This document shows, piece by piece, positions 7,140-23,057 of a stretch of DNA of 23,893 bases (position 1 is its first letter; each line of letters opens with the position of its first letter). Both the position numbers and the translations under genes were made by a program. This stretch comes from Treponema sp. UBA1226 (GTDB lineage Bacteria > Spirochaetota > Spirochaetia > Treponematales > Treponemataceae): the NCBI GenBank assembly GCA_002309195.1, contig DBWY01000012.1, forward strand, positions 185,069 through 208,961, read 5' to 3'. The notes beneath the pieces are model-generated. The model had not been told where the DNA came from and ran no database searches. It saw nothing but the letters and a program-made list of their open reading frames with translations.

Positions 7140-7180
7140 AAAAAATCCACCTGTTTTTTTCAATTACAAAGTATTATTAC

Positions 7181-7209: not shown

Positions 7210-8370
7210 TTAAGATTCTTCGAAATCCGGCGCTACTACTTTACCTTTGTATAGCATTTTAGGGTAAACCGTGAGGCCAAATTTCTTTTCGAGGGCAGCG
7301 TATTTCCTCATTTCGTATTCATCCCCGATTACTACGTTTATTCCGCTTTTACCCGCACGCGCTGTACGGCCTGATCGGTGCACGAAAAAGTCCTCGTTTG
7401 ACGGAAGATCCATCTGTATTATGTGGGTTATCCCCTGGATATCAAGTCCGCGGCTTGCAAGATCGCTTGTGACAAGAAAACGGCATTTTCCGTTCCTGAA
7501 CCGGTCTATGGCGGCTTTTCTTTCTTTTTTGTCTGTTTTTGCATGGAGCGCCATGCAGTCGATTTTCTTATACTGGAGCTTCTGGGCGATGTTTTCTACC
7601 TGGTCGGCCCGGCTTGTAAAAATGAGCGCTTTTTCGGGATTTTCTGCAAGAAGAAAGCTCTTTAAAGTCGAAATCTTGTCCCGGGCTTCGGCAAAAATTG
7701 CCCAGTGGGTAATCTTTTTTGAAAGTATATCCTCTTTTGGAAGAATAATTTCTTTAACGTTTGAAAAGAAGTTTTCGAGATTCTTTTTTGTATTCTGATT
7801 TATCGTTGCAGAGCATGCTATAAACTGTGCGTCACACGGAATGTTTGAAATAAGCTTTTTCGTTTCTTCTGCAATTTCTACGCTTACAAGACGGTCAGCT
7901 TCGTCGAGCACAAGGGCCTTTACGTTTGAAGTCTTTATTTTTTTTAGGTGAATCAACTCAAGGATTCTTGAAGGATTTCCTATTATGATTCGAGGTTTGT
8001 CTTTTAAAAGTTCAATCTGGCGTTTTATAGGAGTTCCGCCTATTAATAGGGCAGATTTTAACTCGGTTATGCGCTGTGCCGTAGATTTTATCTGTGAAGC
8101 AAGCTCGTAAGTCGGGGCTAAAATTATGATTTTATTTTCTGCATTGTTTTCTGCTTCGAGCTTCTGAACGAGGGGAAGGAGGTATGCAAAAGTTTTTCCT
8201 GTTCCGGTTTCGGATTCAAAGATTACATTTGAATTTTCTAAAACTACAGGAATCGTTTTCTGCTGAATAAGTGAAGGTTCTGAAATTCCAAACGAATTAA
8301 GTTTTAAAATAAGTTCAGTTTTAATGCCGAGTAAAGAAAAATCTTTTATTGTGTCTGCCTTTTCGTCCAT
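7210..8370 (-). CDS. DEAD-box ATP-dependent RNA helicase
   Basis: 386 residues from the ATG at 8370. It unwinds or remodels RNA duplexes in the cytoplasm using ATP. Motifs in order: Q-motif region with FSLLGI and Gln36-Gln37; Walker A SETGTGKT (53-60); Ia PTYELA (86-91); GG (111-112); Ib NPSR (132-135); II DEAD (156-159); III SAT (187-189); IV ALIFTSRAD; V TSDLASRGLDI; VI HRSGRTARAG (~330). Ia (usually PTRELA) and Ib (usually TPGR) are variant. There is no long C-terminal extension, so the protein is a minimal two-RecA-domain helicase; the specific subfamily (RhlE, CshA, DeaD) cannot be fixed. The start at 8370 is chosen because a -10 hexamer lies 6 bases upstream (leaderless). In-frame ATGs at 8376 and 8388 lie within or upstream of that promoter. 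Confidence 0.92.
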   Translation of the reverse strand: MDEKADTIKDFSLLGIKTELILKLNSFGISEPSLIQQKTIPVVLENSNVIFESETGTGKTFAYLLPLVQKLEAENNAENKIIILAPTYELASQIKSTAQRITELKSALLIGGTPIKRQIELLKDKPRIIIGNPSRILELIHLKKIKTSNVKALVLDEADRLVSVEIAEETKKLISNIPCDAQFIACSATINQNTKKNLENFFSNVKEIILPKEDILSKKITHWAIFAEARDKISTLKSFLLAENPEKALIFTSRADQVENIAQKLQYKKIDCMALHAKTDKKERKAAIDRFRNGKCRFLVTSDLASRGLDIQGITHIIQMDLPSNEDFFVHRSGRTARAGKSGINVVIGDEYEMRKYAALEKKFGLTVYPKMLYKGKVVAPDFEES

Positions 8371-8376
8371 GAACAT

Positions 8377-8385
8377 ACTATAGCA
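8377..8385 (-). promoter_or_regulatory. extended -10 for the helicase, predicted leaderless
   Basis: On the minus strand TGC (8385-8383) and TATAGT (8382-8377) form an extended -10. Six bases (ATGTTC) then separate it from the ATG at 8370, placing the transcription start at or next to the A of the start codon. No Shine-Dalgarno precedes that ATG, and the -35 is weak. Confidence 0.6.
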
Positions 8386-8400
8386 CATTAAAAAATTCTA

Positions 8401-8409
8401 TGCTATAAT
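8401..8409 (+). promoter_or_regulatory. extended -10 for the glycosyltransferase, predicted leaderless
   Basis: TGC (8401-8403) plus a perfect TATAAT (8404-8409) is followed by CACTTT and the ATG at 8416, exactly 6 bases. There is no Shine-Dalgarno and the -35 region is weak. It is divergent from, and almost a mirror image of, the helicase promoter, with the two hexamers only about 20 bases apart. Confidence 0.7.
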
Positions 8410-8415
8410 CACTTT

Positions 8416-9525
8416 ATGAAAGTCGGAATAGATACTTTCGGTCTTGATCATGGTCAGTCGGGCTTAGGCTCATATCTTTATTATCTTATGAGCAACCTTC
8501 CTTATGAAGAAGACATGACTTATGAACTTTTTGGCGAAGAATCGGACCGTTATACATATAAAGCAAAATTCGATACACAATATGCTCCTGTAGAAATTTC
8601 AGAAAAACTCAACGTGCAGAGAAGCTGGCATATTTTTAAATTGAATAAATTCTCGCGACAGCGAAAATATGATGTAGTGCTTTACAGTGCTGCAACAAGA
8701 ATGATTCCTTCAAAATTTTCTGTAAAGGGAATTGCAATCGTAAATGACGTACTTTCTTTTCTTCTTGCAGGAACTCATCATAAATATTTAAAGACAATCG
8801 GACTTCACGGTTTAAAAAAAGCAGATGCAATCATTGTCCCGAGTGAATATGTAAAAAACGATTTGATTTCTTTCGGACTTGCAAAAGATAAGATTAAAGT
8901 TATTCCAAACGGAATTGACCACAGTATTTTTTATCCTCAGAATCTTTCTGAAGGTGAATATGTTGATATAAAACCCTTTGCAATAAAAAGGCCTTATCTT
9001 ATTTATCCTTCAAAGATTTCACACGAAGCAAAAAAACATATTCAGCTGATAAAAGCATTTAACGTTTTTAAAGAAAAAACAAAGCTTCCTCACAGGCTTG
9101 TTCTTGCAGGAAGCCAGGATGATTATGCTGACGAAGTCCAGAAATATGTTCTTGATTCACCATATGCAAGCGATATTTTTATGACAGGATTTTTCCCTCA
9201 TAAAGAATTAGGGCTTTTGTATTCAAACGCTGATGCATGTATTTTCCCGTCGAGTCAGGAAGGAGTAGGGCTTTCTATCCTCGAGACAATGGCATGCGGA
9301 ATTCCTGTTGCATGTGCAGACAGCGCGGCTCTTCCTGAAGTCTCAGGGGGTAATGCTGTTCTTTTTAATCCTGATGACATAAACCAGATGGCACAGTCAA
9401 TCGAAAAGGTTGTGTGCGATAAAGAACTTCGCGAACATCTTGTTACCGGCGCTCTTGAGTGGACTAAAAAGTTTACATGGGCAAACACTGCTTCTAAACT
9501 CGTAGAAGTAATAAAAAGCCTCTAG
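8416..9525 (+). CDS. GT4-family glycosyltransferase
   Basis: 369 residues with the GT-B fold pattern of family GT4, retaining enzymes that transfer a sugar from a nucleotide-sugar donor. The N-terminal acceptor domain begins with a beta strand and a Gly-rich loop (GQSGLGSY, ~15-22). An interdomain block has IVPSEYVKNDL and VIPNGID, and the donor domain has YPSKISHEAKKH (equivalent to the usual GR..x.KG loop), GFFPHKELGLLYSNADACIFPS and the E-x7-E element (Glu282 to Glu290, in EGVGLSILETMACGIPV). It has no signal peptide and is probably cytoplasmic or membrane-peripheral. Donor and acceptor are unknown; lipid-linked surface glycan or glycolipid synthesis is the likely role. The gene stands alone between a divergent helicase and a convergent coaE, and its stop codon overlaps the coaE stop in a shared CTAG. 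Confidence 0.9.
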   Translation: MKVGIDTFGLDHGQSGLGSYLYYLMSNLPYEEDMTYELFGEESDRYTYKAKFDTQYAPVEISEKLNVQRSWHIFKLNKFSRQRKYDVVLYSAATRMIPSKFSVKGIAIVNDVLSFLLAGTHHKYLKTIGLHGLKKADAIIVPSEYVKNDLISFGLAKDKIKVIPNGIDHSIFYPQNLSEGEYVDIKPFAIKRPYLIYPSKISHEAKKHIQLIKAFNVFKEKTKLPHRLVLAGSQDDYADEVQKYVLDSPYASDIFMTGFFPHKELGLLYSNADACIFPSSQEGVGLSILETMACGIPVACADSAALPEVSGGNAVLFNPDDINQMAQSIEKVVCDKELREHLVTGALEWTKKFTWANTASKLVEVIKSL

Positions 9526-10145
9526 TTTTTAACTGTCGTAATCGTACAGCCAAAATCCTTATACTTATCAAGAAGATTTTTCTGCGCCGTAAAACGCTGC
9601 AGGATTTCAAGTTCGCGTAATCCGCCGCGCTTTCGGGCTCTGTTAAATCTTTTAATCCATGATGCTTCGACAAAAATTACAAGGTCACATTTATTAAGAA
9701 GCGACGGGATTTTATAAAGCACTGTTGCGTTTAAAATTATTCCGCGAAAATTTCCTTTAGCCTTTGTCTGCTTGATGACCTCTTTTATTTTTTCTGACAA
9801 AGCGGGGTATAAAATCTTTTCCTGTTTTTCTAGAAGTTCAGGATAAGAAAAAAGAAGAACGCCAAGTGCTCTTTTATCAACTTTGCCTTCCTGAGTTTTT
9901 ATTACAAGGCCTGTTTCCTCTGCATTTTTTTCAAATGTCTTTAATATTTCATCATTCTTTTCTTCTATTAAAAAGTGAACTTCTTTATCAAAGTCGATGC
10001 AGAGAAAATTTTTTGATTCAAAAAAACTGCTTATAAAGTTTTTTCCTGCAGCCATTTTTCCTGTAACGCAGAAAACCGGAAACTTATTTTCTTTAAATTC
10101 ATTTATGATTGCGTCTATCTGCCTGTCGATTTTTTTTGAATTCAT
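9522..10145 (-). CDS. coaE: dephospho-CoA kinase
   Basis: 207 residues from the ATG at 10145. It catalyses the last step of coenzyme A synthesis, phosphorylating the ribose 3'-OH of dephospho-CoA. Recognisable elements are the P-loop GKMAAGKN (29-36), CIDFDKEVH (the usual IDxDxxxH), LLFSYPELLEKQEKILYPAL, LNATVLYK in place of the usual VPLLFE, and QRFTAQ. Two oddities are an N-terminal extension of about 20 residues and Asn at the last P-loop position instead of Ser or Thr. The start is chosen because GGAG lies 6 bases before this ATG; other in-frame ATGs at 10148 and 10157 are less well placed. It follows polA by about 19 bases, and polA-coaE linkage is also known in other bacteria. Confidence 0.85.
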   Translation of the reverse strand: MNSKKIDRQIDAIINEFKENKFPVFCVTGKMAAGKNFISSFFESKNFLCIDFDKEVHFLIEEKNDEILKTFEKNAEETGLVIKTQEGKVDKRALGVLLFSYPELLEKQEKILYPALSEKIKEVIKQTKAKGNFRGIILNATVLYKIPSLLNKCDLVIFVEASWIKRFNRARKRGGLRELEILQRFTAQKNLLDKYKDFGCTITTVKN

Positions 10146-10164
10146 CATATGCTCCATTTATATT

Positions 10165-13053
10165 TTAGTGGAACTGACCCCAGTTTTTACCGTATTCAAT
10201 TGAAACTCGAAGCGGAACAGAAAGTTCTACGGCGTGTTCCATATTCTGCTTTATAAGCTCGATTGTAGCATCGATTGTTTTCTGGTCGTCAGGGCATTCA
10301 AAGATAAGTTCGTCATGAACCTGAAGCAGAAGCTTAGCTCCGGTCGGGTTTTCAAGCAGTGCTTTGTTTACTTTAAGCATTGCTGTCTTTACTATATCTG
10401 CAGCGCTTCCCTGGATAGGCGTGTTTATTGCAATGCGTTCTGCGGCCGCCTGGTCGTTTTTATTTGTATTATTTATAGTAGGAATATATCTTGTTCGGCC
10501 AGAAATCGTAGAAACCCTGTATTTTTCGTGCGCAGTTGCAATTGTATCTGCAATGAATTTCTGGATTGCAGAATATTCAGTAAAGTAATTTGCAATAAAA
10601 TCCTGTGCCTGAACTCTTGAAATACCCAGTTCTGCAGAAAGCCTGAAGGCGCTCATTCCGTAGATAACGCCAAAGTTGATTGTCTTTGCAAGGCGTCTCA
10701 TTTCTGGTGTTACGTCTTCTTCCTTTACCTTGTAGATAAGCTGTGCGGTCGCCTTATGAACGTCTGTTCCGTCGATGAACGCTTTACACATTGCAGGGTC
10801 TTTTGAAAGATGTGCCATTACTACAAGCTCAATCTGCGAGTAGTCTGCAGAAATAAAAACTGTTCCCGGCTTTGCAGTAAAGCCAGAGCGTATTCTTCTT
10901 CCTGCATCACTTCTTACAGGAATGTTCTGTAAGTTAGGGTCTTTGCACGAAAGTCTTCCTGTTGCAGTTCCAGTCTGAACAAAAGTAGTGTGGATGAGGC
11001 TTTCTTTATCGCAGAGTTTTGGAAGTGATTCTACATAAGTTGACTGCAGCTTTGAAAGCTCTCGGAACTCAAGAATTTTCTTTGGAACAGGATCATAAAC
11101 TGCAAGTTCTTCGAGAACAGAAGTGTCTGTAGAATAGCCTGTCTTTGTTTTTTTTGATGGCTTTAAGCCGCGTTCTGTAAACAAAACTTCCTGAAGCTGC
11201 TTTGTCGAAGAAATATTAAAATCATGTCCGACAATAGAAAAGATTTCTTTTTCTGCTTCTTCTATCTGTTTGCTTAATTCTTTGTTGTATGAGTCAAAAA
11301 GCTTTGTATCTATGTGGATTCCTTCAAGCTCCATTTCTGCAAGAATTGGAATAAGAGGAAATTCCATTTCGTATAAAAGTTTTTCCTTGTAATATTTTTT
11401 TACATAAACTTCGAGTGCAGGCCAGAGCTGGAGCGTTATGTCTGACTTTTCACATACAAAACTGCAGGCATTTTCTTCGCTCATGTCAAAGAAAGTCTGG
11501 CCTTTAGCAAGAACTTCATCATAATCTGTTTTTATAACAGCAAGTTTTTTCTGTGCAATATTTAAAAGTGAATATGGCTCAGAACCGTTTTCGTCAGGCG
11601 ATAAAATCCAGGACGCAACCATAGTGTCTATAAAACGTTTTGAATTTTTTATACATGATGTCCTTATATCTTTAAGTCCGCTAAAGCGAAGCGTTTTATA
11701 AATAAATTTCATGTCATGAAAAATAAGCGTAAGGTTTTCATCATCAAACAGCCTCTGAATTTCTTTTACCGCTTCTTCTTTTGTAACGCCGGACGATGAA
11801 AATAAATCCTGTCCCTGCGTTAACGGAATGTAAAAACCTGTGTGGATTTTATTGCTTACAGAAATTCCTGCAAGTGTAGAAGAGTAGAGGTCACTTTTTT
11901 CTGTTTCTACTGCAATTGAAACAGGATTTTTTTCGCTTATAAATGAGTCAGTAAGTTTTTCTAATTCTTCTTTTGAAGAAATCGTTTTATAAGTTCCGTC
12001 TGCTTTATGAAGCGGAATAAGCTTATCCTTTAATTCTTCTGCATCTTGTTTAAGCTGTTCTTCAGGAGATTTTGCAGTTCGTGATTTTTTTTCGTCTGAG
12101 GCTTTGTCTGCTTTTTTCTCGTCTGAAGACGATTTATCGTCAGAAACTTTGCTGTCGCTTACATCATAGCCTGCAAGTTCTGCGTAAAGTTTTGCACACG
12201 ACGGAATCTGATATTTAAAAAGTTCATCGGCTGCTTTTTTATAATTGAGCGCAAGCGGAACAAATTTATTTATATCAATTTCAGGGCATGGAACATCATA
12301 GCAAAGCTTTACAAGATCGCGTGAGAAAAAAGCATCTTTTTTACCGTCACGGATTTTCTGACCGATTGCGCCTTTAATTTCGTCGGCGTGTTCATAGATT
12401 CCTTCAAGAGAACCGTACTGGTCTAAAAATTTACATGCGGTTTTAACACCGCAGCCCTTTACACCCGGAATATTATCTGCTGTATCTCCGTAAAGTGAAA
12501 GTAAGTCCAGCATTTTTTCTGGATCTACACCCCATTCAGCTTTAACTCCTTCTTTTCCCACGATTTTCCAGACATCGCTATGATCCGGTTTTAAAATCTG
12601 GGTTGTGTCGGTAACAAGCTGCATGAGGTCCTTGTCGCCCGATAAAATCCTGCAGGGGCGTCCTGCTTTTTCGCACTGTGCGGCAACCGTGGCGATAATG
12701 TCGTCGGCTTCGTAGCCGTCACACTGCAGGGTAGGAATTCCCATTGCGCTTAAAACATCGCATATCCACGGAATCTGCGCATGAAGGTCTTCCGGGGTTT
12801 TAGGGCGATTTGCCTTGTACTGGTCGTACATTTTATGTCTGAAAGTCGGTGTTTTTGAGTCCATTGCAGCCGCAATATACGAAGGCTTGTAATGCGAAAG
12901 AATCGTATAAAGGTTTCTGAAAAAGCCGAAAAGTGCAGAGACATTTTCTCCGCGCGAATTAGTCAGCGGCCTTGAAATAAAAGCAAAATAGCAGCGGTAA
13001 ATTAAACCGTATGAATCAAGAATATAAACAGTATTGTCGTCGTTTGTAGCCAT
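10165..13053 (-). CDS. polA: DNA polymerase I
   Basis: 962 residues from the ATG at 13053. It fills gaps and removes RNA primers in replication and repair. The 5' nuclease domain (1-~300) has ILDSYGLIYRCYFAF, QYKANRPKTPEDL, CDGYEADDIIA, ILSGDKDLMQLV and GDTADNIPGVKGCGVKTA. A Lys/Ser/Asp-rich linker (~305-345) follows. The 3'-5' exonuclease domain (~365-560) is present but its catalytic motifs are altered. The polymerase domain has motif A DYSQIELV (~737), motif B RRLAKTINFGVIYG (~785-798) and motif C QVHDELIFE (~910). The start is set by an extended -10 exactly 6 bases before this ATG; an in-frame ATG at 13080 would lie upstream of that promoter. The gene is co-transcribed with coaE. Confidence 0.95.
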   Translation of the reverse strand: MATNDDNTVYILDSYGLIYRCYFAFISRPLTNSRGENVSALFGFFRNLYTILSHYKPSYIAAAMDSKTPTFRHKMYDQYKANRPKTPEDLHAQIPWICDVLSAMGIPTLQCDGYEADDIIATVAAQCEKAGRPCRILSGDKDLMQLVTDTTQILKPDHSDVWKIVGKEGVKAEWGVDPEKMLDLLSLYGDTADNIPGVKGCGVKTACKFLDQYGSLEGIYEHADEIKGAIGQKIRDGKKDAFFSRDLVKLCYDVPCPEIDINKFVPLALNYKKAADELFKYQIPSCAKLYAELAGYDVSDSKVSDDKSSSDEKKADKASDEKKSRTAKSPEEQLKQDAEELKDKLIPLHKADGTYKTISSKEELEKLTDSFISEKNPVSIAVETEKSDLYSSTLAGISVSNKIHTGFYIPLTQGQDLFSSSGVTKEEAVKEIQRLFDDENLTLIFHDMKFIYKTLRFSGLKDIRTSCIKNSKRFIDTMVASWILSPDENGSEPYSLLNIAQKKLAVIKTDYDEVLAKGQTFFDMSEENACSFVCEKSDITLQLWPALEVYVKKYYKEKLLYEMEFPLIPILAEMELEGIHIDTKLFDSYNKELSKQIEEAEKEIFSIVGHDFNISSTKQLQEVLFTERGLKPSKKTKTGYSTDTSVLEELAVYDPVPKKILEFRELSKLQSTYVESLPKLCDKESLIHTTFVQTGTATGRLSCKDPNLQNIPVRSDAGRRIRSGFTAKPGTVFISADYSQIELVVMAHLSKDPAMCKAFIDGTDVHKATAQLIYKVKEEDVTPEMRRLAKTINFGVIYGMSAFRLSAELGISRVQAQDFIANYFTEYSAIQKFIADTIATAHEKYRVSTISGRTRYIPTINNTNKNDQAAAERIAINTPIQGSAADIVKTAMLKVNKALLENPTGAKLLLQVHDELIFECPDDQKTIDATIELIKQNMEHAVELSVPLRVSIEYGKNWGQFH

Positions 13054-13059
13054 ATTGTA

Positions 13060-13068
13060 AATATAGCA
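13060..13068 (-). promoter_or_regulatory. extended -10 for polA, predicted leaderless
   Basis: On the minus strand TGC (13068-13066) plus TATATT (13065-13060) is followed by TACAAT and the ATG at 13053, again 6 bases. The -35 position is only a run of T. There is no Shine-Dalgarno. Confidence 0.6.
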
Positions 13069-13105
13069 CATAAAAAACATATAAAAAAGTACAGAAGAGT
13101 ATAAA

Positions 13106-13135
13106 ACAGAAAAAGTGCAGGAGCAGTTTTTCTGT
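13106..13135. repeat. strong inverted repeat between the polA and ROK promoters
   Basis: Arms ACAGAAAAA (13106-13114) and TTTTTCTGT (13127-13135) are perfectly complementary. Inside them, after a G:G mismatch, TGC and GCA pair around an AGGA tetraloop, giving a 12-pair stem with one mismatch. It lies upstream of both divergent promoters, so it is not an obvious terminator of either gene. It may be a protein-binding dyad or a DNA cruciform. Confidence 0.6.
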
Positions 13136-13157
13136 CTTACATATGAAGGTACTTTAT

Positions 13158-13182
13158 TTAGTTGAATAAATCAATAAACTAA
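13158..13182. promoter_or_regulatory. XylR-type operator overlapping the ROK promoter
   Basis: Arms TTAGTT (13158-13163) and AACTAA (13177-13182) are perfect inverted repeats separated by 13 bases; one more T/A pair extends them outward. As I recall it, the Bacillus xylO site bound by the ROK-family repressor XylR has the same 6-base arms and the same 13-base spacing. The site covers the -35 of the ROK gene and ends 2 bases before its -10, the right place for autorepression. Confidence 0.65.
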
Positions 13183-13190
13183 AATAAAAT
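13162..13190 (+). promoter_or_regulatory. promoter of the ROK-epimerase-luxS operon, predicted leaderless
   Basis: TTGAAT (13162-13167), a 17-base spacer and TAAAAT (13185-13190) form a standard sigma-70 promoter. The ATG at 13197 follows the -10 by exactly 6 bases (ACCCGT), with no Shine-Dalgarno. Confidence 0.65.
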
Positions 13191-13196
13191 ACCCGT

Positions 13197-14357
13197 ATGC
13201 GTGTACTCAATTCACTGTCAGATTTAAATGTCATGCGTATTCTAAGGCTTATTTACCTCGAAAAGAAAATAAGCCGTGTCGACATCGCTTCTCGCCTTGC
13301 AATGGATAAATCTACAGTCACGAAAATTACTTCAGAACTCTGCACTAAAAACCTCATACGCGAAGCCGAAGTGGGAAACTCTGGTCCTCAGGGTGGTCGA
13401 AAACCTGTATTTCTTGAGCTTAACGGGCAGTACGCTGCTATAGGTGGAATCGAAATCAACTCCGAACATTTTTATGCTTTAATTTTAAATCTTAGCGGGA
13501 ACCTCATTTTTGAGTACACAGAAAAAATCAATCCCGATGAATATTTAAAAATCGGCTTTATGGGATTTTTTAAAAAAGCATTGATCGTAATAAAAAAACA
13601 CGCAGAAAAAATCAACATACGTCTTTTAGGAATCGGAGTTGGAGTTCCGTCGCTTGTAGATTATGCAGAGGGCAAGATTATTAACTCAATTCCTCTTATG
13701 ATTTACAAGCCAGTTGAATTTACAAAAGAAGCTTCTAAGATTGCAAAAATTCCTGTGTTTATCGATAACGATGCACGGTGCTGCTGCTATACAGAAAAAA
13801 GTAATTGTGAAAATTCAGCACGCGAAAAAAACATGATGTACGTAATGATACAGTACAGGCAGCAGAAACCGGTTAAGGGTTCGCAGAAAGATATTTCTGT
13901 AGGTTTTGGTTTTAAACTTGGAGGTAAAGTTTACCGCGGAACAAATTCTCTTGCAGGAGAATTCCGCAGTATGATGTGGAATCCTGAAAGTAAAAACCAG
14001 TTTTCTAATTCTACAAACTACATAGAAGATTTATCTGATACAAAAAAAATTAATCCGCTTTTTAAGGAACTTGCAAAGAACGTTGCCTTTATCGTAAATC
14101 TTTTAAATCTTGATATAGTTTATGCCGGCGGAATCGATGAAAAATACACGACGAAAATCGTTCAATATATAAAAGAAGAAATTTTATACCTCTGGCCGTA
14201 TGAAAAAAATGTGTGCCCTGATATAAAGACTTCAGAACCACATGACAGAGTTGTTTCAGAAGGGGCCGCACTTATGGTTTTAGACAGGCTCTTTAGTGTT
14301 CCAGAATTTTCTGATAATATGAAACAGGAGGTTTTGTATGCCGCGCTTTGGATATAA
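13197..14357 (+). CDS. ROK-family transcriptional regulator (XylR-like architecture)
   Basis: 386 residues. Residues 1-75 form a winged helix-turn-helix (ISRVDIASRLAMDKSTVTKI is the HTH, with the wing ending in GGRKP), as in XylR/NagC/Mlc-type regulators. The rest is a ROK sugar-kinase fold: AAIGGIEINSEHF in place of the phosphate loop, VGVPSLVD, FIDNDARC (~188-196), GGKVYRGTNSLAGEF and a C-terminal VSEGAALMVL. The ExGH sugar-contact motif reads GEFRS and the Cys-rich zinc motif is absent, so the sensor is degenerate and the ligand may not be an ordinary free hexose. A XylR-type dyad over its own promoter supports autoregulation. Its 3' end overlaps the next gene by 20 bases. It probably controls that gene and luxS. 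Confidence 0.85.
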   Translation: MRVLNSLSDLNVMRILRLIYLEKKISRVDIASRLAMDKSTVTKITSELCTKNLIREAEVGNSGPQGGRKPVFLELNGQYAAIGGIEINSEHFYALILNLSGNLIFEYTEKINPDEYLKIGFMGFFKKALIVIKKHAEKINIRLLGIGVGVPSLVDYAEGKIINSIPLMIYKPVEFTKEASKIAKIPVFIDNDARCCCYTEKSNCENSAREKNMMYVMIQYRQQKPVKGSQKDISVGFGFKLGGKVYRGTNSLAGEFRSMMWNPESKNQFSNSTNYIEDLSDTKKINPLFKELAKNVAFIVNLLNLDIVYAGGIDEKYTTKIVQYIKEEILYLWPYEKNVCPDIKTSEPHDRVVSEGAALMVLDRLFSVPEFSDNMKQEVLYAALWI

Positions 14358-15015
14358 TGACATGAAAGAAAAATATGAAAAACTTTTTGACTACTATAAG
14401 GACACTTCAAGCGAACTTGTCAAACCGTTTTTATTTGAACAGATGAAAAAAGAACTTCCTGATGAAAATGACGAAGTTGATGTTTATCTTTTGTGTCAGC
14501 TTCTTGAGTTTTTTTCAAAAGCAGTTCGTCTTGTAAGCGAAGATGAATATTTAGAAAGTGCTGATTATCTTTATGAAAGGGTAGTTCACGAGGCATTTGA
14601 TACTACATGCGGTGGATATTACGAAAGATTAAAGAGTGAAGGAAGCGTATTGAGTGATAAAAAGCTTCTTAAAACCCAGTATATGGCTATGGTTGCACTC
14701 GGTGAATATGCGTGTGCAAAAAAGATTTCTAAAGACGAAGAATATCACTACACTGCAGTTTTAAACCGTGCTCTTGCTCAGTATACAATGATTACTCATT
14801 ATGCAATAATAAAGGGAACAGAAAACCTTTATCCTGTAATGAATAAGGACTGGAGTGCTTCAGAAACTGACGGTACTTCATCAGGCTTAAATCCGGACGA
14901 TAAAGAGTGCGTTGCAAAAGCGTTCCGTCATTTATATGCTGACCTTGCTTTTATAGACCCGAAGGCTACAGCAACCTTAAACCTTATAAGCGAGACTGCT
15001 TCTAAATTTGAATAA
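14338..15015 (+). CDS. possible N-acylglucosamine 2-epimerase-like (alpha/alpha toroid) protein
   Basis: 225 residues, almost all helical, with no signal peptide. The stretch HEAFDTTCGGYYERL followed by a short loop, then LSDKKLLKTQYMAMVALGEYA, resembles the repeating unit of the N-acylglucosamine 2-epimerase/cellobiose epimerase alpha-toroid family (a GG-aromatic loop, then D-K-x-L and Q-x-x-x-x-x-AL). At 225 residues it is only about 60% of the usual ~380-400, so it may be a half-barrel or simply a helical protein of another family. I see no catalytic His pair typical of the epimerases. AGGAGG lies 6 bases before the ATG, inside the end of the ROK gene. It lies between a ROK regulator and luxS in an apparent operon, which suggests sugar-related or AI-2-related metabolism. 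The function is not established. Confidence 0.55.
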   Translation: MPRFGYNDMKEKYEKLFDYYKDTSSELVKPFLFEQMKKELPDENDEVDVYLLCQLLEFFSKAVRLVSEDEYLESADYLYERVVHEAFDTTCGGYYERLKSEGSVLSDKKLLKTQYMAMVALGEYACAKKISKDEEYHYTAVLNRALAQYTMITHYAIIKGTENLYPVMNKDWSASETDGTSSGLNPDDKECVAKAFRHLYADLAFIDPKATATLNLISETASKFE

Positions 15016-15035
15016 ATTATAAAGTGAGGAAAAAA

Positions 15036-15509
15036 ATGAACTTAATACCTAGTTTTACGATTGACCATACAAAACTTAAACCCGGCATTTACATTTCACG
15101 TGTAGATGATGTAAACGGAACTGAAGTAACAACCTATGATATCCGCATGAAGTGTCCTAATATTGAGCCTTGTGTGGATCTTCTTGGTATGCATACGATT
15201 GAGCATCTTGTTGCAACTTATCTTAGAAATGATGAAGAATATAAAGAAAAATTAATTTACTGGGGACCAATGGGCTGTCTTACAGGATGCTACATGATTT
15301 TAAAAGGCCGCCCGTCGCCGGAAGAGGTTTGTAAAATAATCATCAGGGCATTCGAATTTGTTGCAGGTTACGAAGGAAAAATCCCTGGAACAGCACCGGA
15401 AGAATGCGGAAACTATCTTCTTCATAATCTTACGCTTGCAAAATACGAAGCAAAAAAATACGTGGAGATTCTTAAAACAAATCCATGCTTCGAATATCCG
15501 AAGGCGTAG
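15036..15509 (+). CDS. luxS: S-ribosylhomocysteine lyase (AI-2 synthase)
   Basis: 157 residues from the ATG at 15036, the normal LuxS length. It splits S-ribosylhomocysteine into homocysteine and DPD, the precursor of autoinducer 2, in the activated methyl cycle. Metal ligands His53 and His57 (in HTIEH, with base Glu56) and Cys124 (ECGNY) are present, as are Ser6, Arg37 and the active-site Cys81 (MGC). The segment after that Cys reads LTGCY rather than the common RTGFY, marking a divergent clade. GAGG lies 6 bases before the ATG, so this start is preferred over an in-frame GTG at 15024 that overlaps the Shine-Dalgarno. It is the last gene of the ROK operon, 20 bases after the previous stop. 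No pfs (mtnN) gene is in the window. Confidence 0.95.
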   Translation: MNLIPSFTIDHTKLKPGIYISRVDDVNGTEVTTYDIRMKCPNIEPCVDLLGMHTIEHLVATYLRNDEEYKEKLIYWGPMGCLTGCYMILKGRPSPEEVCKIIIRAFEFVAGYEGKIPGTAPEECGNYLLHNLTLAKYEAKKYVEILKTNPCFEYPKA

Positions 15510-15518
15510 ATATAGGGT

Positions 15519-15570
15519 GCGCGGTGTCTGACAGCATATGTCTGTCCGGCGTGCGCTTTGCGTTTATTTT
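15519..15570 (+). terminator. probable terminator between convergent luxS and capA-like genes
   Basis: An inner stem GACAG (15530-15534)/CTGTC (15542-15546) with a 7-base loop is flanked by GCGC (15519-15522)/GCGC (15553-15556). It is followed by a T-rich run (15557-15570) that is interrupted by GCG. The G+C-rich stretch stands out in an AT-rich region. The stem is imperfect, so the call is moderate. Confidence 0.45.
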
Positions 15571-16772
15571 AAAACTACTTTTGTGTCTTCTATCGTCGCA
15601 AGATGCTTTTCAAAATAAAGCGGACGGTTATTTACAAAACCGACTCTTACTACCATCGTATCTGTTGCATTAGGCATGTCATCCATTCCCGGAAAAACAA
15701 AATTACCGAGTGAATAAACTATAATCGAATTATTATACATTTCAACCGGCTCAAGGACATGCGGGTGAGAACCAAATACAACAGCTGCTCCTGCATCGCA
15801 GACTTTATGATAAAGTTCAATCTGATCATCAGAAGGCTGTAAACTGTATTCGTACCCGCCATGAATGTTTACGATTATTATTTTATCATCCGGTTTTTCG
15901 TACGTTTCATCTTCGATAAGCTTGATTGTTTCGTCAGACTTCCATAGAATTCCTGCTCTTGTATCTGTTGCCGATGCATGAATCAAGCCGTCAAAACCTG
16001 TTCTTTCTGTCGGGAACGCACCAAACGAAAGGATGCTTAAATTTGTTCCGTCTACATTTTCGCGGTAAAAACGGGCCGCGTCAAAATAAGTATAACCTGC
16101 ACCAGAAGTTGCAAAACCTTCTTCACGCACTGCAGTCAGAGTGTCAACAAAACCTTTTTCGTTGTAATCATAGCAGTGGTTGTTTGTAAGCATGAGGTAA
16201 TCAAAACCCGCATCGTGCAGAAAATGAAGGACGCTCTTTTTAAATTTAAATCTGTATGTCTTTGGCCACGGAATGTCGTGTTCGGTTACGGCGCCTTCGA
16301 GATTTCCTATAGCATAGTCGCTGTCTTTAAAAAGATTCATCGTGTCGGTAAAAACTGCCTCTGCAGAATTTTCTTCTTCGAGTACTTCTGCAATTCCACG
16401 GTTTAAGATGATGTCTCCGGCAGCTGCAACAAAAAAAACTTTGTACAGTTTTGTCTGAGGCTGAATTTTACAAATGACTTTTTCGATTCTAAAAAGCGGG
16501 TAATCACTTGATGAAGGGTAGAGTATTGTTCCGCCTTTTTTAACAGGAAGGGCTATATAGCCTGCAGGAATTTCTTCGAGGGCATAGAAAGTTACGTTTG
16601 AAGGATTTTTTTCTCCCGTTGTGTCGTCAGGGCTGTCTGCGTCGTAATATTCATATTTAAGGTTTTCATCAAAGGGAACGCAGGGAAATAAAAGCGTCCT
16701 TTTTTCATAAGTCTTTTTGCATGACAATAAGGCCATTGCCAGAAGCAGTACGGGTAATGTTTTTTTAAGCAT
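15564..16772 (-). CDS. CapA/PgsA-like metallophosphatase lipoprotein
   Basis: 402 residues. A lipoprotein signal peptide ends in lipobox LLSC (Cys18). An N-terminal domain of ~90 residues (20-110) has no recognised motif. The rest is a CapA (poly-gamma-glutamate synthesis) domain of the calcineurin-like fold: AAGDIILNRG (~117-126), GNLEGAVT, LTNNHCYDYNEKG (~195-207), VNIHGGYEY (where HWGxEY is usual) and GSHPHVLEPVEMYNNSIIVYSLGNFVF (~332-360). Homologues act outside the cytoplasm in poly-glutamate export or as phosphatases/hydrolases; no capB or capC is nearby, so a general envelope hydrolase role is more likely than capsule synthesis. It stands alone, convergent with luxS. The ATG at 16772 follows a promoter without a Shine-Dalgarno. 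Confidence 0.88.
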   Translation of the reverse strand: MLKKTLPVLLLAMALLSCKKTYEKRTLLFPCVPFDENLKYEYYDADSPDDTTGEKNPSNVTFYALEEIPAGYIALPVKKGGTILYPSSSDYPLFRIEKVICKIQPQTKLYKVFFVAAAGDIILNRGIAEVLEEENSAEAVFTDTMNLFKDSDYAIGNLEGAVTEHDIPWPKTYRFKFKKSVLHFLHDAGFDYLMLTNNHCYDYNEKGFVDTLTAVREEGFATSGAGYTYFDAARFYRENVDGTNLSILSFGAFPTERTGFDGLIHASATDTRAGILWKSDETIKLIEDETYEKPDDKIIIVNIHGGYEYSLQPSDDQIELYHKVCDAGAAVVFGSHPHVLEPVEMYNNSIIVYSLGNFVFPGMDDMPNATDTMVVRVGFVNNRPLYFEKHLATIEDTKVVLK

Positions 16773-16777
16773 AGGTA

Positions 16778-16806
16778 ATTTTATATTGAAGAGCAGTTTT
16801 TAACAA
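16778..16806 (-). promoter_or_regulatory. promoter of the capA-like gene, near-leaderless
   Basis: On the minus strand TTGTTA (16806-16801), 17 bases, then TAAAAT (16783-16778), five bases before the ATG at 16772. An overlapping TATAAA (16785-16780) gives a 7-base gap with a shorter spacer. Either way almost no leader is left and no Shine-Dalgarno is present. Confidence 0.5.
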
Positions 16807-16845
16807 CAGAAAAAAACTAATGTTTATTTGTTTACTTCCGATATA

Positions 16846-16851
16846 TATAGT
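16846..16851 (+). promoter_or_regulatory. weak candidate -10 for the small gene at 16880
   Basis: TATAGT lies within an ATATATATAG run, about 15 bases before a Shine-Dalgarno. No convincing -35 is visible at the correct distance. The site is plausible mainly because some promoter is needed between this gene and the divergent capA-like gene. Confidence 0.35.
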
Positions 16852-16879
16852 AGAAACTTATTAAATGGAGGTAAGTGTT

Positions 16880-17278
16880 ATGATTACAAACATGCATAAT
16901 TTAAGTCCGTACTCTTATAATACAGTTGCCTCTTATGGTGCAGGCTCAAAGCTTTACGTTCCTGTAAGCCCGTCAAGCGTGGTTTATGCCCAGTTTGACC
17001 ATATTTCGGGCATTGCTGCAAAAGGCGGCCAGCACGGAGTTTCTATTACAAAAATTCAGATTTTAAATGCCCTTATCGAAAATCTTTCAAAGATTAAGGC
17101 AAATGCAAAAGTAAATCCGGTTTCTAAAGAGACAAACCTCTCAGAAGATCAGGTAAATAACCTTATCAAAAATTACCAGGCTCAGCTTAAGCAGACAGTA
17201 GCCAGCGCACAGTCAACACCATACCTTCTTGCAGGCGTAAAACCTCAGAACGGCACACTTTTTTCTATTGATGCGTAA
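16880..17278 (+). CDS. small conserved-looking protein of unknown function
   Basis: 132 residues from the ATG at 16880. GGAGG (16867-16871) is 8 bases before this ATG; an in-frame ATG at 16865 overlaps that Shine-Dalgarno and is rejected. It has no signal peptide or membrane helix. Residues about 1-40 are rich in Tyr, Ser, Pro and Val. A compact block with FDHISGIAAKGGQHGVSI precedes two amphipathic helices (~60-112) separated by a Pro/Ser turn, with a low-complexity tail. I do not recognise the family; the FDHISGI..GGQ block looks like a motif worth searching. An unusual bulged hairpin follows its stop codon. Confidence 0.7.
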   Translation: MITNMHNLSPYSYNTVASYGAGSKLYVPVSPSSVVYAQFDHISGIAAKGGQHGVSITKIQILNALIENLSKIKANAKVNPVSKETNLSEDQVNNLIKNYQAQLKQTVASAQSTPYLLAGVKPQNGTLFSIDA

Positions 17279-17313
17279 GTTCATATGTCACATCAATGCC
17301 AATTGATATGAAC
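17279..17313 (+). repeat. bulged hairpin directly after the stop codon of the small gene
   Basis: GTTCAT (17279-17284) pairs with ATGAAC (17308-17313), and ATCAAT (17292-17297) pairs with ATTGAT (17302-17307) around a GCCA tetraloop. A 7-base bulge (17285-17291) lies on the 5' side. The alternative outer pairing GTTCAT-AT with AT-ATGAAC gives 8 continuous pairs. No T-run follows, so it is not a standard terminator. The rest of the 165-base gap up to 17442 holds a -10-like TGG-TAAAAT (17386-17394) but no firm -35. Confidence 0.55.
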
Positions 17314-17442
17314 CCAAACGGGCTTTTGGTAAATTCAGCATAGAAAAACAGTTTTCTCTAAACTATGGTCAAAAAATAACATTTTTGGTAAAATTGTCAT
17401 AACTTTATACAGTTTGAAAGTGTTTTACTTTCGGAGGTTTTT

Positions 17443-18510: not shown

Positions 18511-18568
18511 AAGACTGAGTTTTGTTGCACACATGTGCATCCACGCAACACCGCTGACGCGGAGTCTT
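18511..18568 (+). ncRNA. predicted three-way-junction RNA structure between the UPF0164-like and OmpA-like genes
   Basis: AAGACT (18511-18516, directly after the stop codon) pairs with AGTCTT (18563-18568), closing a junction. One arm is GTTGC (18524-18528)/GCAAC (18545-18549), with an alternative hairpin TGCAC-ACAT-GTGCA (18526-18539); the other is CCGC-TGAC-GCGG (18551-18562). The next gene's Shine-Dalgarno AGGAG follows within ~6 bases. It may be a processing site, a partial terminator or a control of the downstream gene. The structure is by eye only, and ncRNA is the nearest available type. Confidence 0.4.
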
Positions 18569-18584
18569 TAACAGGAGATGATTT

Positions 18585-21500
18585 ATGAGAGTTCAGACAA
18601 AGATTACTATTGCAGCAGCTGTTTTTGCAGCAGCATGTACTCTTGCATTTGGATTTACTGTATTAAAATATTTTTCACCAAACAATGACGGAACAAGGGA
18701 TGTTTTAGAATTTCCTTTTTCTGCTTCTGATGACGGGCGCATTGTTTCGTGGAAGATGGTTATAGAAAATTCCCGCGGTAAGGTTGTAAGAACTATCGGA
18801 AATAAATCTACTCTTCCTTCAAAGATTACGGCCGGTGGTGTAATTAAATCTCTCGGCCGCGCAAAAGAAAGCGTTATCATTCCAAAGAGTGTAATCTGGG
18901 ACGGAACCATGGACGACGGTACTATGGCTCCTGACGGAGAATATTTTTATTACATCAGTGTAAAAGACGAAAGTGATAACGAATCTACTACAAAAAAATA
19001 CAATGTATTTCTTGATAACACAGCACCAGAAAGTTCTGTAACGGTTCCGACCGGTGAGGATCTTGTTTTTGGAGAAGGTGCTAAAGCGGTTTTCCAGATT
19101 AAGCAGACTGGTTCAAAAGAAAAAAAATGGACTGGAAAAATAACTGACCGTGACGGTAAAGAAGTACGTACTTTAAATTGGGACGACAATAAGCCTGCAA
19201 ACTTTTCATGGGACGGAACTGACGACACCGGAATGATTGTTCCTGACGGTGTTTACAATTATGTTCTTATCGGAGAAGACAGGGCAGGTAACGTAAGCGA
19301 AGAGCGCGGAATTAAAAACATTATTTTTTCTGCAGAAAAACCTGCGACAAATATTTCGATTAACGGAACAAAATATTTTTCTGTTGCATCAAAAAGCGAA
19401 AAGACAAAAATTGTTTTTGATGTAGATATTCCGCAGCCTAAAAATGCAAACAAGCTCGTAGACTGGAGCGTCGTAATTTCTCAGAAAGATAATGCAGGAA
19501 ATGCAAAGACAATAAGAACTTACAATGCAAAGACAACCGGTAAAACAGTTCCTCCTTCTGTAATTGAATTTGACGCAAAAGACGATAACGGAAGCCTTAT
19601 TGCAGAAGGCGAATATTTTGCAACCGTAAAAGCGCGTTATCTTAACGGATATGAAACAACTCCTGTAAATACAAGCCTTTTTACGTTTGATACTACATCG
19701 CTTTATGCAAAAATTGATGCAAGCTCAAATATATTCAGTCCGGACGGTGACGGAAGAAAGGATATTATTACATTCAGCATAGCAACAGATCAGAAAGGCG
19801 GATCGCCTGTCGATTTCTGGAAGGGTGTAATTAAAAACATGCAGGACTCAAGCGAAGTAAAGAAATTTGAGTTTGGTCTTTTTGTTCCGGAAGAAGTTAA
19901 ATGGGACGGACTTGATGAAAACGGAAAGCTCTGTTCTGATGGAAAATATGAGTTCGTAGTTTCTGGTTCTGATATGGCTGGAAACTCAATAACAGTAAAG
20001 ACAGACGAAGATTTTGTTCTTGATACTTCTAAAACAGAAGTTCTTCTTGCAACAGATTATACATATATTTCTCCGGATGCGGTTTCGCAGAATGCAGTAG
20101 CATTTACTCCGGTAGTAAAAGAAAATGCTGATGTCGTAAAATATAATTTTGAAATTAAAAATGCTTCAGGTCAGGTAGTGTTCTCTAAAAAAGAACAGTC
20201 TCGTGTTCCTTCTTCTATCGTATGGAACGGAAAAACTCCTGATAAAAAAACATTAAAAGACGGAACATATTCTGCAACGCTTACTACAGAATCTGCAAAC
20301 GGTTCTGTTGCAAAAGCAGCAGTTCCGCAGCTTGTAATTGATACTGTAGCTCCGAGTGCAGATCTTTCTCTTGAAAATAAAATATTCAGCCCGGATGGCG
20401 ACGGAAGAAAGGATGAACTTTTGATTCATTCAAAAAACTGTTCAAAAGAAAAACTCTGGACTGTTGTAATTTCTGATAAAGGCGGAAAAGCTGTAAAAGA
20501 ATACAAGTTCAATAAATATATAAACAACAGTTCTTCGTCTGTAATTAAATGGGACGGAACAGATGAAGCCGGAAACAAAGTTTCTGACGGAACTTATTCT
20601 GTTGCAGTAAAATCGGCTGACGAAGCAGGAAATAAATTTAATTTAACACTTCCTTCTGTTACTGTAGATACAAGACCTGTTAAGGTTTATGTAACTGCAG
20701 AATACGAAGGATTTTCTCCTCTTTCTACAAATGGTGTTAAGGCACAGAAATTTAATTTAAGGACTTCAATTCCTGATGGAATCAAGTTCTGGGAATTTGA
20801 TGTTGTCGACGAAAAGGGCAACAGCGTTTATACAGTTCAGTCTGATGACAAAAATAAATCGCTTCCAAAAGAAATCATCTGGAACGGTACAAAAGAAGAC
20901 GGAACTTATGCAGACGGAATTTTCTTTGGCGAACTTTCTATGGAATATGAAAAAGGAAATGACGTTTACGAAAAATCTTCGCAGTTTGTTTGTTCAAACT
21001 CTGCACCTAAGTTGAATGTAGTTACAGCTCCGGAGTTCTTTAGTCCTGATAACGACGGAACAGATGATGATCTTTTTATCAAGTTAAGTGCAAGATGTGC
21101 AGGAAAAATTACTGCATGGTCATTTACTATTTTAAATCCTGAAGAATCGGGAAGAGCCGGAAAACCATTCTGGAAAACTTCCGGAACTTCAAAGATTACA
21201 GAACAGATTATCTGGAACGGTTTGAGTAACGTTTCGACAGAAAAGAACGGACAGGCAGAAAGAGTTCAGTCGGCAATGGATTATCCATGGCAGTTTACCG
21301 TAACAGATTCTCTTGGACTTACTTCTACGGTTACAGGAAAGATTTCTGTTGATATTCTTGTAATCCGTGACGGAAACGTATTAAAGATGGCTGTTCCAGC
21401 GATTATATTCAGATCTAATGCGGCAGACTTTAAGACTGCAAAAGAAGCTCCTGGAAGTAAAGTTACCCCTGAACAGGCTGCAAACAACGAGCGTGTTCTT

Positions 21501-21788
21501 AAGCGTGTAGCAGAAATCCTTAAGAAATTCCCTGACTATACGATTACGATTGTAGGTCATGCAAATAACATAACCGGAACCGAAGCCGAGGAAACATCTG
21601 GCGACATTCCGCTTGTACCGCTTTCTCAAAACCGCGCTGCCTTTGTAAAGACAAGACTTGAAGCTTATGGAATCGAAAGCTCAAGAATGAAGACAGAAGG
21701 TAAGGGTGGCCGCGAAAGAATCGCATCGCTTAAAGACAGAGAAAACTGGTGGAAAAACCGCCGCGTTGAATTCTTGCTACATAAGTAA
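18585..21788 (+). CDS. giant periplasmic protein: FlgD-Ig-like repeats plus C-terminal OmpA domain
   Basis: 1067 residues with a signal peptide (residues 1-~23; the AAAC inside it makes a lipoprotein possible but less likely). Residues 30-~920 carry repeated modules. FSPxxDGxxD calcium-type loops lie near 31, 384, 601 and 819. At least six W-(D/N)-G-x-x-D-x-G...DG-x-Y units, typical of FlgD Ig-like repeats, lie near 105, 207, 439, 546, 655 and 765; a seventh near 875 is partial. Residues ~930-1065 form an OmpA-like peptidoglycan-binding domain (IVGHANNITG, LSQNRAAFVKTRLEAYGI and the final WWKNRRVEFLL). It probably links an envelope structure to peptidoglycan. AGGAG lies 7 bases before the ATG. 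The upstream UPF0164-like protein is the likely partner. Confidence 0.85.
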   Translation: MRVQTKITIAAAVFAAACTLAFGFTVLKYFSPNNDGTRDVLEFPFSASDDGRIVSWKMVIENSRGKVVRTIGNKSTLPSKITAGGVIKSLGRAKESVIIPKSVIWDGTMDDGTMAPDGEYFYYISVKDESDNESTTKKYNVFLDNTAPESSVTVPTGEDLVFGEGAKAVFQIKQTGSKEKKWTGKITDRDGKEVRTLNWDDNKPANFSWDGTDDTGMIVPDGVYNYVLIGEDRAGNVSEERGIKNIIFSAEKPATNISINGTKYFSVASKSEKTKIVFDVDIPQPKNANKLVDWSVVISQKDNAGNAKTIRTYNAKTTGKTVPPSVIEFDAKDDNGSLIAEGEYFATVKARYLNGYETTPVNTSLFTFDTTSLYAKIDASSNIFSPDGDGRKDIITFSIATDQKGGSPVDFWKGVIKNMQDSSEVKKFEFGLFVPEEVKWDGLDENGKLCSDGKYEFVVSGSDMAGNSITVKTDEDFVLDTSKTEVLLATDYTYISPDAVSQNAVAFTPVVKENADVVKYNFEIKNASGQVVFSKKEQSRVPSSIVWNGKTPDKKTLKDGTYSATLTTESANGSVAKAAVPQLVIDTVAPSADLSLENKIFSPDGDGRKDELLIHSKNCSKEKLWTVVISDKGGKAVKEYKFNKYINNSSSSVIKWDGTDEAGNKVSDGTYSVAVKSADEAGNKFNLTLPSVTVDTRPVKVYVTAEYEGFSPLSTNGVKAQKFNLRTSIPDGIKFWEFDVVDEKGNSVYTVQSDDKNKSLPKEIIWNGTKEDGTYADGIFFGELSMEYEKGNDVYEKSSQFVCSNSAPKLNVVTAPEFFSPDNDGTDDDLFIKLSARCAGKITAWSFTILNPEESGRAGKPFWKTSGTSKITEQIIWNGLSNVSTEKNGQAERVQSAMDYPWQFTVTDSLGLTSTVTGKISVDILVIRDGNVLKMAVPAIIFRSNAADFKTAKEAPGSKVTPEQAANNERVLKRVAEILKKFPDYTITIVGHANNITGTEAEETSGDIPLVPLSQNRAAFVKTRLEAYGIESSRMKTEGKGGRERIASLKDRENWWKNRRVEFLLHK

Positions 21789-21803
21789 GATTTTTGGTAT
21801 AAT
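21774..21803 (+). promoter_or_regulatory. extended -10 promoter, predicted leaderless, for the glycerophosphotransferase
   Basis: TTGCTA (21774-21779), an 18-base spacer and TATAAT (21798-21803) preceded by TGG (21795-21797). The ATG at 21810 follows the -10 by exactly 6 bases (CAGTTT). No Shine-Dalgarno precedes the ATG. The -35 lies within the end of the previous gene. Confidence 0.65.
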
Positions 21804-21809
21804 CAGTTT

Positions 21810-23057
21810 ATGGTGGTAAATGAGTTTGACTTTCTATACATTGACCCTGGAACGGGGTCAATGCTCATATCGATTATACTTGGAGCAGCGGCAACACTGT
21901 TTTTTCTTGCGAGAGCAGCGTGGTTAAAGGTAAAACTTCTTTTTACAGCTCGTAAAAATGGTGTTTCTGCCGCCGCTGACCAGCATTTTAAGAAATATGT
22001 AGTTTATAATGAAGGAATCCAGTACTGGAATACCTTTAAGCCTGTCTGTGATGAATTTGAAAAACGCAGAATTGAACTTACATATTATACTTCTGCAAAA
22101 AATGACCCTTGTTTTGAAGCAGGTTACGAATTTGTAAAGCCTGAGTTTATAGGTGAGGGAAACATCGCTTTTGTAAAACTCAATATGCTCAGTGCAGGAA
22201 TTGTTTTAATGACGACACCGGGCCTGCAGGTTTATCAACTTAAGCGAAGCAAAAATGTAAAGCATTATGCCCATGTTCTTCATATGCCTAATGATGCAAC
22301 GACATACAGACTTTTTGGACTTGATTATTTTGATTCAGTTCTCCTTTCTGGAGATTATCAGAAAACAGATATAAGGTTTCTCGAACAGCAGCGCGGAATA
22401 AACAAAAAACAACTTGTTACTGTTGGATGCCCTTATCTTGATGTTTATAAAGAAAATATCGCACAAATTCCAGAAGAAGAAAATCATCCTTTCACAGTCT
22501 TAGTTTCTCCAAGCTGGGGTGATGTAGGAATTTTAAAGAAATATGGCGAAAAGCTCCTTGATCCACTTGCAGCAACCGGATGGCGTATCATTGTAAGGCC
22601 GCATCCGCAGTCAAAGAAATCCGAAGCAGATATGCTTTCTCATCTTGAAGAACGCTATAAAGATAATAAAAATGTTGAATGGGATTATGAACGTCAGAAT
22701 ATATTCAGTTTAAAGAAAGCTGACGTAATGATTTCGGATTTTTCTGGAATTATTTTTGACTATACATTCCTTTGTGATAAGCCTGTCATGTATGTAAGTG
22801 ATAAAATTGATTTAAGGCCTTACGATGCATATGATCTTGGCGAAAAAAAATTATGGCAGTATGAAAGCCTTGAGAAATTCGGTAAAAAACTGGATGAAAA
22901 AGACTTTGCTGATATAAAAGAAGTTATAAAGAATATGAGCGACAGCAGAGAACTTGCAGATGCCCGTGCTAAAGCAAAGGCAGAAGCATGGATGCATATC
23001 GGAGAAGCTGGTAAACGCATAGTAGACTTTATGGTGCAAACAATGGATAATAAATAA
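21810..23057 (+). CDS. CDP-glycerol glycerophosphotransferase-like enzyme
   Basis: 415 residues. The N-terminus (FDFLYIDPGTGSMLISIILGAAATLFFLARAAW) is a membrane anchor beginning with the YIDPGTGSM motif. The C-terminal half matches the CDP-glycerol:poly(glycerophosphate) glycerophosphotransferase family (teichoic acid TagF/TagB fold): LVSPSWG, IVRPHPQS (~262-268) and ADVMISDFSGIIFDYTFLCDKPVMY (~304-328), where the family has SDYSSIxFD. Such enzymes add glycerol-phosphate or ribitol-phosphate units at the cytoplasmic membrane face. Spirochaetes have no classical teichoic acids, so the acceptor is probably a surface glycan or glycolipid. A PEP-mutase gene follows after 18 bases with its own Shine-Dalgarno, indicating an operon. 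The first ATG (21810) is preferred over that at 21820 because of the promoter spacing. Confidence 0.88.
   Translation: MVVNEFDFLYIDPGTGSMLISIILGAAATLFFLARAAWLKVKLLFTARKNGVSAAADQHFKKYVVYNEGIQYWNTFKPVCDEFEKRRIELTYYTSAKNDPCFEAGYEFVKPEFIGEGNIAFVKLNMLSAGIVLMTTPGLQVYQLKRSKNVKHYAHVLHMPNDATTYRLFGLDYFDSVLLSGDYQKTDIRFLEQQRGINKKQLVTVGCPYLDVYKENIAQIPEEENHPFTVLVSPSWGDVGILKKYGEKLLDPLAATGWRIIVRPHPQSKKSEADMLSHLEERYKDNKNVEWDYERQNIFSLKKADVMISDFSGIIFDYTFLCDKPVMYVSDKIDLRPYDAYDLGEKKLWQYESLEKFGKKLDEKDFADIKEVIKNMSDSRELADARAKAKAEAWMHIGEAGKRIVDFMVQTMDNK

Follow-up and report, generated by a model that had tools for sequence, protein, structure and literature searches.

Predicted leaderless promoters as a minority mode, commoner in first genes, in a group of Treponema

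Do genes at the head of a transcript in treponemes begin directly at their start codon, with no untranslated leader? The question is raised by a stretch of 23,893 nucleotides from Treponema sp. UBA1226 (contig DBWY01000012.1, positions 185,069 to 208,961 of the forward strand, assembly GCA_002309195.1), called the window here, in which five genes had been predicted to carry a -10 hexamer exactly 6 bases before the ATG. These encode a DEAD-box helicase, a glycosyltransferase, DNA polymerase I (polA), a ROK-family protein and a glycerophosphotransferase-like protein. All five sites are present as given, and the sequence comparisons described below favor genuine leaderless transcription from sigma-70-type promoters, with a probability of about 0.87, as a minority mode that would serve roughly 4–9% of genes and is commoner in first genes. 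The features concerned are as follows.

7210..8370, minus: DEAD/DEAH-box helicase gene, proposed leaderless start 8370 (Pfam PF00270, PF00271)
8377..8382, minus: -10 hexamer TATAGT of the helicase gene, TGC at 8383-8385 (sequence)
8404..8409, plus: -10 hexamer TATAAT of the glycosyltransferase gene, TGC at 8401-8403 (sequence)
8416..9525, plus: glycosyltransferase group 1 gene, proposed leaderless start (Pfam PF00534)
10165..13053, minus: polA, DNA polymerase I, proposed leaderless start 13053 (Pfam PF00476, PF02739, PF01367, PF01612)
13060..13065, minus: -10 hexamer TATATT of polA, TGC at 13066-13068 (sequence)
13162..13167, plus: -35-like TTGAAT of the ROK-family gene, with a 17-bp spacer to its -10 (sequence)
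13185..13190, plus: -10 hexamer TAAAAT of the ROK-family gene (sequence)
13197..14357, plus: ROK-family gene (regulator-like), proposed leaderless start (Pfam PF00480 and a MarR-type N-terminal match)
16778..16783, minus: TAAAAT of the capA-like gene (ATG at 16772 minus; spacing 5 bases), a doubtful member (sequence; PF09587)
21798..21803, plus: -10 hexamer TATAAT of the glycerophosphotransferase-like gene, TGG at 21795-21797 (sequence)
21810..23057, plus: CDP-glycerol glycerophosphotransferase-like gene, proposed leaderless start (Pfam PF04464)

Read along each gene, the sites are TGC-TATAGT-atgttc-ATG for the helicase (8370 minus), TGC-TATAAT-cacttt-ATG for the glycosyltransferase (8416), TGC-TATATT-tacaat-ATG for polA (13053 minus), TAAAAT-acccgt-ATG for the ROK gene (13197), with TTGAAT 17 bp upstream, and TGG-TATAAT-cagttt-ATG for the glycerophosphotransferase gene (21810). 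The extended -10 elements claimed for four of the five are thus found as TGn before the hexamer, the ROK gene being the fifth. The capA-like gene, described as close to the pattern with 5 or 7 bases, has its TAAAAT at 5 bases. Two side remarks of the original prediction stood less completely. Four start codons were said to be corrected, and two are (8388 to 8370 for the helicase and 13080 to 13053 for polA); for the other three genes the longest open reading frame (ORF) already starts at the named ATG. Shine-Dalgarno (SD) sites, claimed for most downstream genes, are plain at the ORFs starting at 3751 minus, 14338, 17443 and 18585, and not at the longest start of coaE (10157 minus). For counting, a strict hexamer was defined as TA, a middle triplet with at most one mismatch to TAA, and T. 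The 17 ORFs of the window have 38 in-frame ATGs close to their starts; 15–39 bases upstream of these, strict hexamers occur at a mean of 0.3 per position, and the Poisson probability of at least five at one position is 1.6e-5. A scan of every ATG in the window gave eight strict sites with the 6-base spacing. Besides the five named ones, these are a second, nested site of the helicase frame (8388 minus, TAGAAT), a site at 15147 that lies in frame within an ORF, and a site at 14799 minus that precedes a frame of 12 codons. Such sites are more frequent in the window than on average in the sampled relatives.

The distance profile was taken from relatives rather than from the genome of the window itself. 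Searches of the genus and phylum were centered on Treponema sp. Tb.RUG.459 (locus L002, genome G001), the most similar of the named relatives from a scan with polA, and four genomes of one Treponema group (G001, G080, G046 and G048; 1,506 kb, 1,217 ORFs) were sampled. As ORFs were called by length alone and every in-frame ATG near the start was counted, the counts are independent of anyone's annotation. Strict hexamers lie 5 bases from an in-frame ATG in 3 genes, 6 bases in 65, 7 in 35, 8 in 34 and 9 in 18, with a background of 18.6 per position at 15–39 bases, and the step from 5 to 6 bases recurs in each genome taken singly (0 to 11, 3 to 18, 0 to 13 and 0 to 23). The excess over background, taken as 18.6 upstream or ~10 nearby, amounts to ~46 to 55 of the 1,217 genes at 6 bases (roughly 4%) and ~78 to 104 genes at 6–8 bases (6–9%). 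A peak at 6 bases over the relatives' genomes, the absence of which had been set beforehand as grounds for rejecting the prediction, is thus present and sharp on its near side. The spacing is preferred at ATG, with strict hexamers at 6 bases before 66 of 1,914 ATG codons, 4 of 440 GTG, 4 of 1,117 TTG and 2 of 680 CTG; the lack of a peak for the last three in this sample is a weak control, many non-ATG codons not being starts. Across 98 genomes of the genus, G001 included, TATAAT-N6-ATG totals 6,958 matches vs 3,411 for N5 and 2,902 for N12, and N6 exceeds both others in 95 genomes.

Features of promoters that took no part in the selection accompany the hexamers at this one distance. A match of at least 4 of 6 letters to TTGACA at a 17-bp spacer is found in 29 of the 65 genes with the hexamer at 6 bases, and any other spacer from 12 to 22 gives 0–5 of the 65; for hexamers elsewhere the 17-bp match occurs in 3/60 at 0–5 bases, 22/170 at 10–19 and 23/168 at 20–29, the latter two groups presumably being in part ordinary promoters. 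TGn likewise precedes the hexamer in 20/65 genes at 6 bases compared with 2/60, 20/170 and 14/168 in those three groups. A -35 about 17 bp from the -10, or an extended -10, the mark of a sigma-70-type promoter, is therefore found both in the relatives' sample and in the window genes; a promoter type other than sigma-70 was considered and rejected, as -35 and -10 resemble the sigma-70 consensus. A TANNNT element ~10–12 bases upstream of the start codon, in position-specific excess over chance, also agrees with the TA-led class of leaderless genes. Counted from the A of ATG as +1, the -35 occupies -35 to -30 and the -10 occupies -12 to -7, the textbook numbering for a transcript that starts at this A. 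The base before ATG is a pyrimidine in 52 of the 65 genes compared with 569 of 1,111 over first ATGs, and a pyrimidine at that place is favored by transcript starts. An SD-like motif was seen in none of the 65 genes, compared with 130 of 292 whose hexamer lies 13–29 bases away. From this arrangement it appears likely that, with a sigma-70-type -10 ending 6 bases before the start codon, RNA polymerase would start at the A of ATG, or 1–2 bases before it. A transcript that presumably starts at this A would be a leaderless mRNA, and its translation would rely on ribosomes binding the AUG at the 5′ end and not an SD site.

Position in the transcript separates the genes further. Strict hexamers at 6 bases occur in 28 of 290 divergent genes of the four-genome sample against a background of 6.5 per position, in 23 of 313 genes after a same-strand gap of at least 60 bases (background 5.0) and in 12 of 531 closely following genes (background 5.9). 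Relatives of the five window genes follow the same pattern, with a strict hexamer at 5–9 bases in 40/57 where the gene stands first and in 14/48 where it lies downstream (Fisher p 3.5e-5, an indicative value only, as related loci were taken as independent and the ORF rule is crude). Ten of the 115 loci are omitted here: seven without a readable 5′ end, two without an ATG and one polA locus with <400 bases upstream. In G080 the glycosyltransferase gene directly follows the helicase gene on one strand, and there it has an SD-like site and no hexamer (L185). In general, the relatives that lie downstream in an operon more often have an SD site. These counts, though crude, consistently suggest that the mode of initiation follows gene order across the five genes.

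Conservation was followed gene by gene in the same 115 loci less nine (the seven without a readable 5′ end and the two without an ATG), L002 being omitted as a duplicate of L085. The polA loci were the 30 best from the 95 of 98 genus genomes with a match, plus three from the earlier polA scan; for the other four genes the search covered 24 of the 98 genomes, chosen among those with the most similar polA. TANNNT stands exactly 6 bases before the polA ATG in 28 of 33 relatives of 46–72% protein identity, with differing flanks and hexamers. It is found at 5 bases in three, 7 bases in two and 8 bases in one, the commonest other position being 11 bases, with eight. Three of the relatives that lack it at 6 bases have it at 5 or 7, and the other two (L001 and L019) have an SD-like motif; the spacing is also present in L003, a Treponema metagenome-assembled genome with a 46% identical polA. 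The 6-base spacing of TANNNT is shared by 10 of the 20 helicase relatives whose start is readable, with five others at 7–8 bases; by 7 of 21 glycosyltransferase relatives, again with five others at 7–8; and by 5 of 10 relatives of the ROK gene.

Two side observations belong to these loci. The divergent ATGs of the helicase and glycosyltransferase genes are only 45 bases apart (window 8371-8415), and between them two extended -10 elements stand head to head as an inverted repeat (TGCTATAGT / TGCTATAAT); many relatives have similar pairs. Each -10 lies approximately at the place of the other promoter's -35; consequently, the two promoters may exclude each other. Separately, the last ~2.4 kb of L002, a contig of a Treponema metagenome-assembled genome (JAEEVR010000014.1), matches window 8761-11193 at 97.7%, and the overlapping locus L177 matches 8761-11022 at 99.2%, with L002 only ~72% alike to the window further into polA. 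This is probably a chimeric contig end crossing inside polA, with recent recombination as the alternative.

Several observations weigh against leaderless transcription with an exact spacing, or narrow it. For hexamers at 6 bases the lack of SD motifs is in part a consequence of position, since the hexamer takes up the place of the SD site. In G080 and G046 the counts rise broadly at 6–8 bases (18, 13, 9 and 13, 15, 15), so that "precisely 6" is not universal; over the four genomes together 6 has the highest count, with 7 and 8 also enriched, chiefly in these two. N6 is not above N5 in 3 of the 98 genus genomes. The hexamer is still present at 5–9 bases in those 14 downstream relatives and missing in 17 of the 57 first ones. 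The arrangement of the glycerophosphotransferase gene is unconserved, with TANNNT at 6 bases in 2 of 22 relatives and an SD-like motif in 18 of the 22. The regular use for first genes that had been proposed shrinks to a greater frequency there: the mode is a minority one, not a first-gene rule. Finally, a gene-aware sample of the phylum (a single stretch from each of 40 genomes, in total 602 kb and 468 ORFs) gave no peak, with 6 genes at 6 bases compared with 12.2 per position, and the feature is therefore not general to spirochaetes. These 40 genomes were drawn from 60 in which exact TATAAT had been counted, since that count was swamped by chance matches in AT-rich genomes. As a test of a phylum-wide feature the exact count also came out against, N6 exceeding N5 in 15 of 60 genomes; the excess was 1.5-fold, on 10 or more matches, in four of the 60, G001 among them. 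The same 60 genomes hold 5,307 TATAAT-N5-ATG vs 4,318 N6 matches, a surplus that is perhaps a reading-frame effect. On these sequence counts, the exact spacing appears to belong to this genus or a somewhat wider group, and not to the phylum.

Among other explanations, the one that survives best is that the promoters are real and that transcripts carry a very short leader of ~1–5 bases, translated without an SD site. The enrichment at 7 and 8 bases fits starts at -1 or -2, or a choice of start site by the polymerase, but the abrupt step from 3 genes to 65 is what would be expected if the polymerase normally starts at the A and a start inside the ATG is not tolerated. A short leader is improbable as the general account; it may hold for part of the genes and would be functionally nearly equal to a leaderless start. 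That the true start codons lie elsewhere, the hexamers being ordinary promoters with leaders, is far less likely again. For the helicase, three in-frame ATGs lie close together (8388, 8376 and 8370), and the starts chosen for its relatives vary. However, in the proposed polA protein the exonuclease domain (Pfam) starts as early as residue 9, so the start codon cannot lie much further downstream; many relatives have an ATG at the aligned place or at most 2 codons off with the hexamer at 6 bases, and in L154, the closest relative of the helicase at 80% identity, the ATG stands at the aligned place with TATATT at 6 bases. Chance matches in AT-rich upstream DNA can practically be dismissed: the window has 38.6% G+C, TANNNT is common and two of its eight strict sites lie away from gene starts, but chance would not yield a one-position peak, a -35 at one spacing, a preference for ATG, a first-gene bias and conservation at polA, and loci from outside the spirochaetes (569 kb, 437 ORFs) gave 7 genes at 6 bases vs 6.9 per position, none with a -35 at 17 bp.

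Taken together, the position of the putative promoters, their spacing and conservation, the absence of SD motifs and the first-gene bias stand as sequence statistics, and genuine leaderless transcription as a minority mode would account for them. More tentatively, and with the odds somewhat against it, leaderless starts with an exact 6-base spacing could be a derived trait of one genus, and not of the rest of the phylum as sampled, selectively kept and tied to gene order, the same gene being leaderless if first and SD-led if internal; its retention at polA through great divergence would then perhaps reflect a distinct control of translation. The results indicate that a large treponeme group uses leaderless promoters regularly and has conserved them, which offers a rule for finding true start codons in this group. 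The orthologs that would be leaderless or SD-led as gene order changes form a natural set in which the evolution of initiation modes is directly testable.

Two further starts in the window may be noted. The ORF at 16865 opens with ATGGAGG, in which GGAGG resembles the SD site of an in-frame ATG at 16880, the likelier start (window 16865-16880). The long ORF at 4116-7163 minus, presumably SMC-like at its N terminus, has a TTG as its longest start, and an in-frame GTG eight codons in, after GGTGG, looks likelier. As TGATATAAT sits 17 bases before this TTG, that first gene appears to have a leader.

Leaderless genes of this kind are known from several systems. In the TA-led class of Zheng et al. 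2011, the first T of TANNNT lies ~12 bases before the start, a distance that is exactly one hexamer plus 6 bases, and their table lists leaderless genes in 6 of 18 Spirochaetes genomes, at 1.8–6.9% of genes (PMC3160421). The word Treponema has no occurrences in the main text of that paper, and conservation by gene in a spirochaete group is not among the passages covered. A literature search for "leaderless" with "Treponema" found nothing on leaderless promoters in this treponeme group, as judged partly by title and abstract start: in the parts seen, the word refers to leaderless peptides in one paper (PMC9200625) and stands only in a reference title in another (PMC12687308), and the main text, as seen in part, of a 2025 T. 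pallidum transcriptome has neither "leaderless" nor "UTR", though a start-site predictor was used (PMC12223175). Another likeness is Leptospira interrogans, a spirochaete with leaderless mRNAs, in which ~440 mapped transcripts start within 10 bases of the start codon and 170–184 exactly at it (PMC5243855); those were mapped experimentally, whereas the treponeme ones are predicted from sequence. The null result in the phylum sample consequently does not mean that other spirochaetes lack leaderless mRNAs, as Leptospira has them (PMC5243855). The archaeon Sulfolobus solfataricus, with leaderless opening cistrons and SD-led distal ones (PMC1397820), shows the same split of modes by place in the transcript; it differs in its promoters and ribosomes, and in that opening cistrons generally are leaderless there, in the treponemes a minority of first genes. 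In mycobacteria and Deinococcus, too, many transcripts start right at the start codon (505 in M. tuberculosis and 1,174 in D. deserti, as cited in PMC5243855); these organisms belong to other phyla and have more such genes. With leaderless genes already predicted in Spirochaetes (PMC3160421) and mapped in Leptospira (PMC5243855), the treponeme group is, on the passages available from these sources, a new lineage of a known kind.

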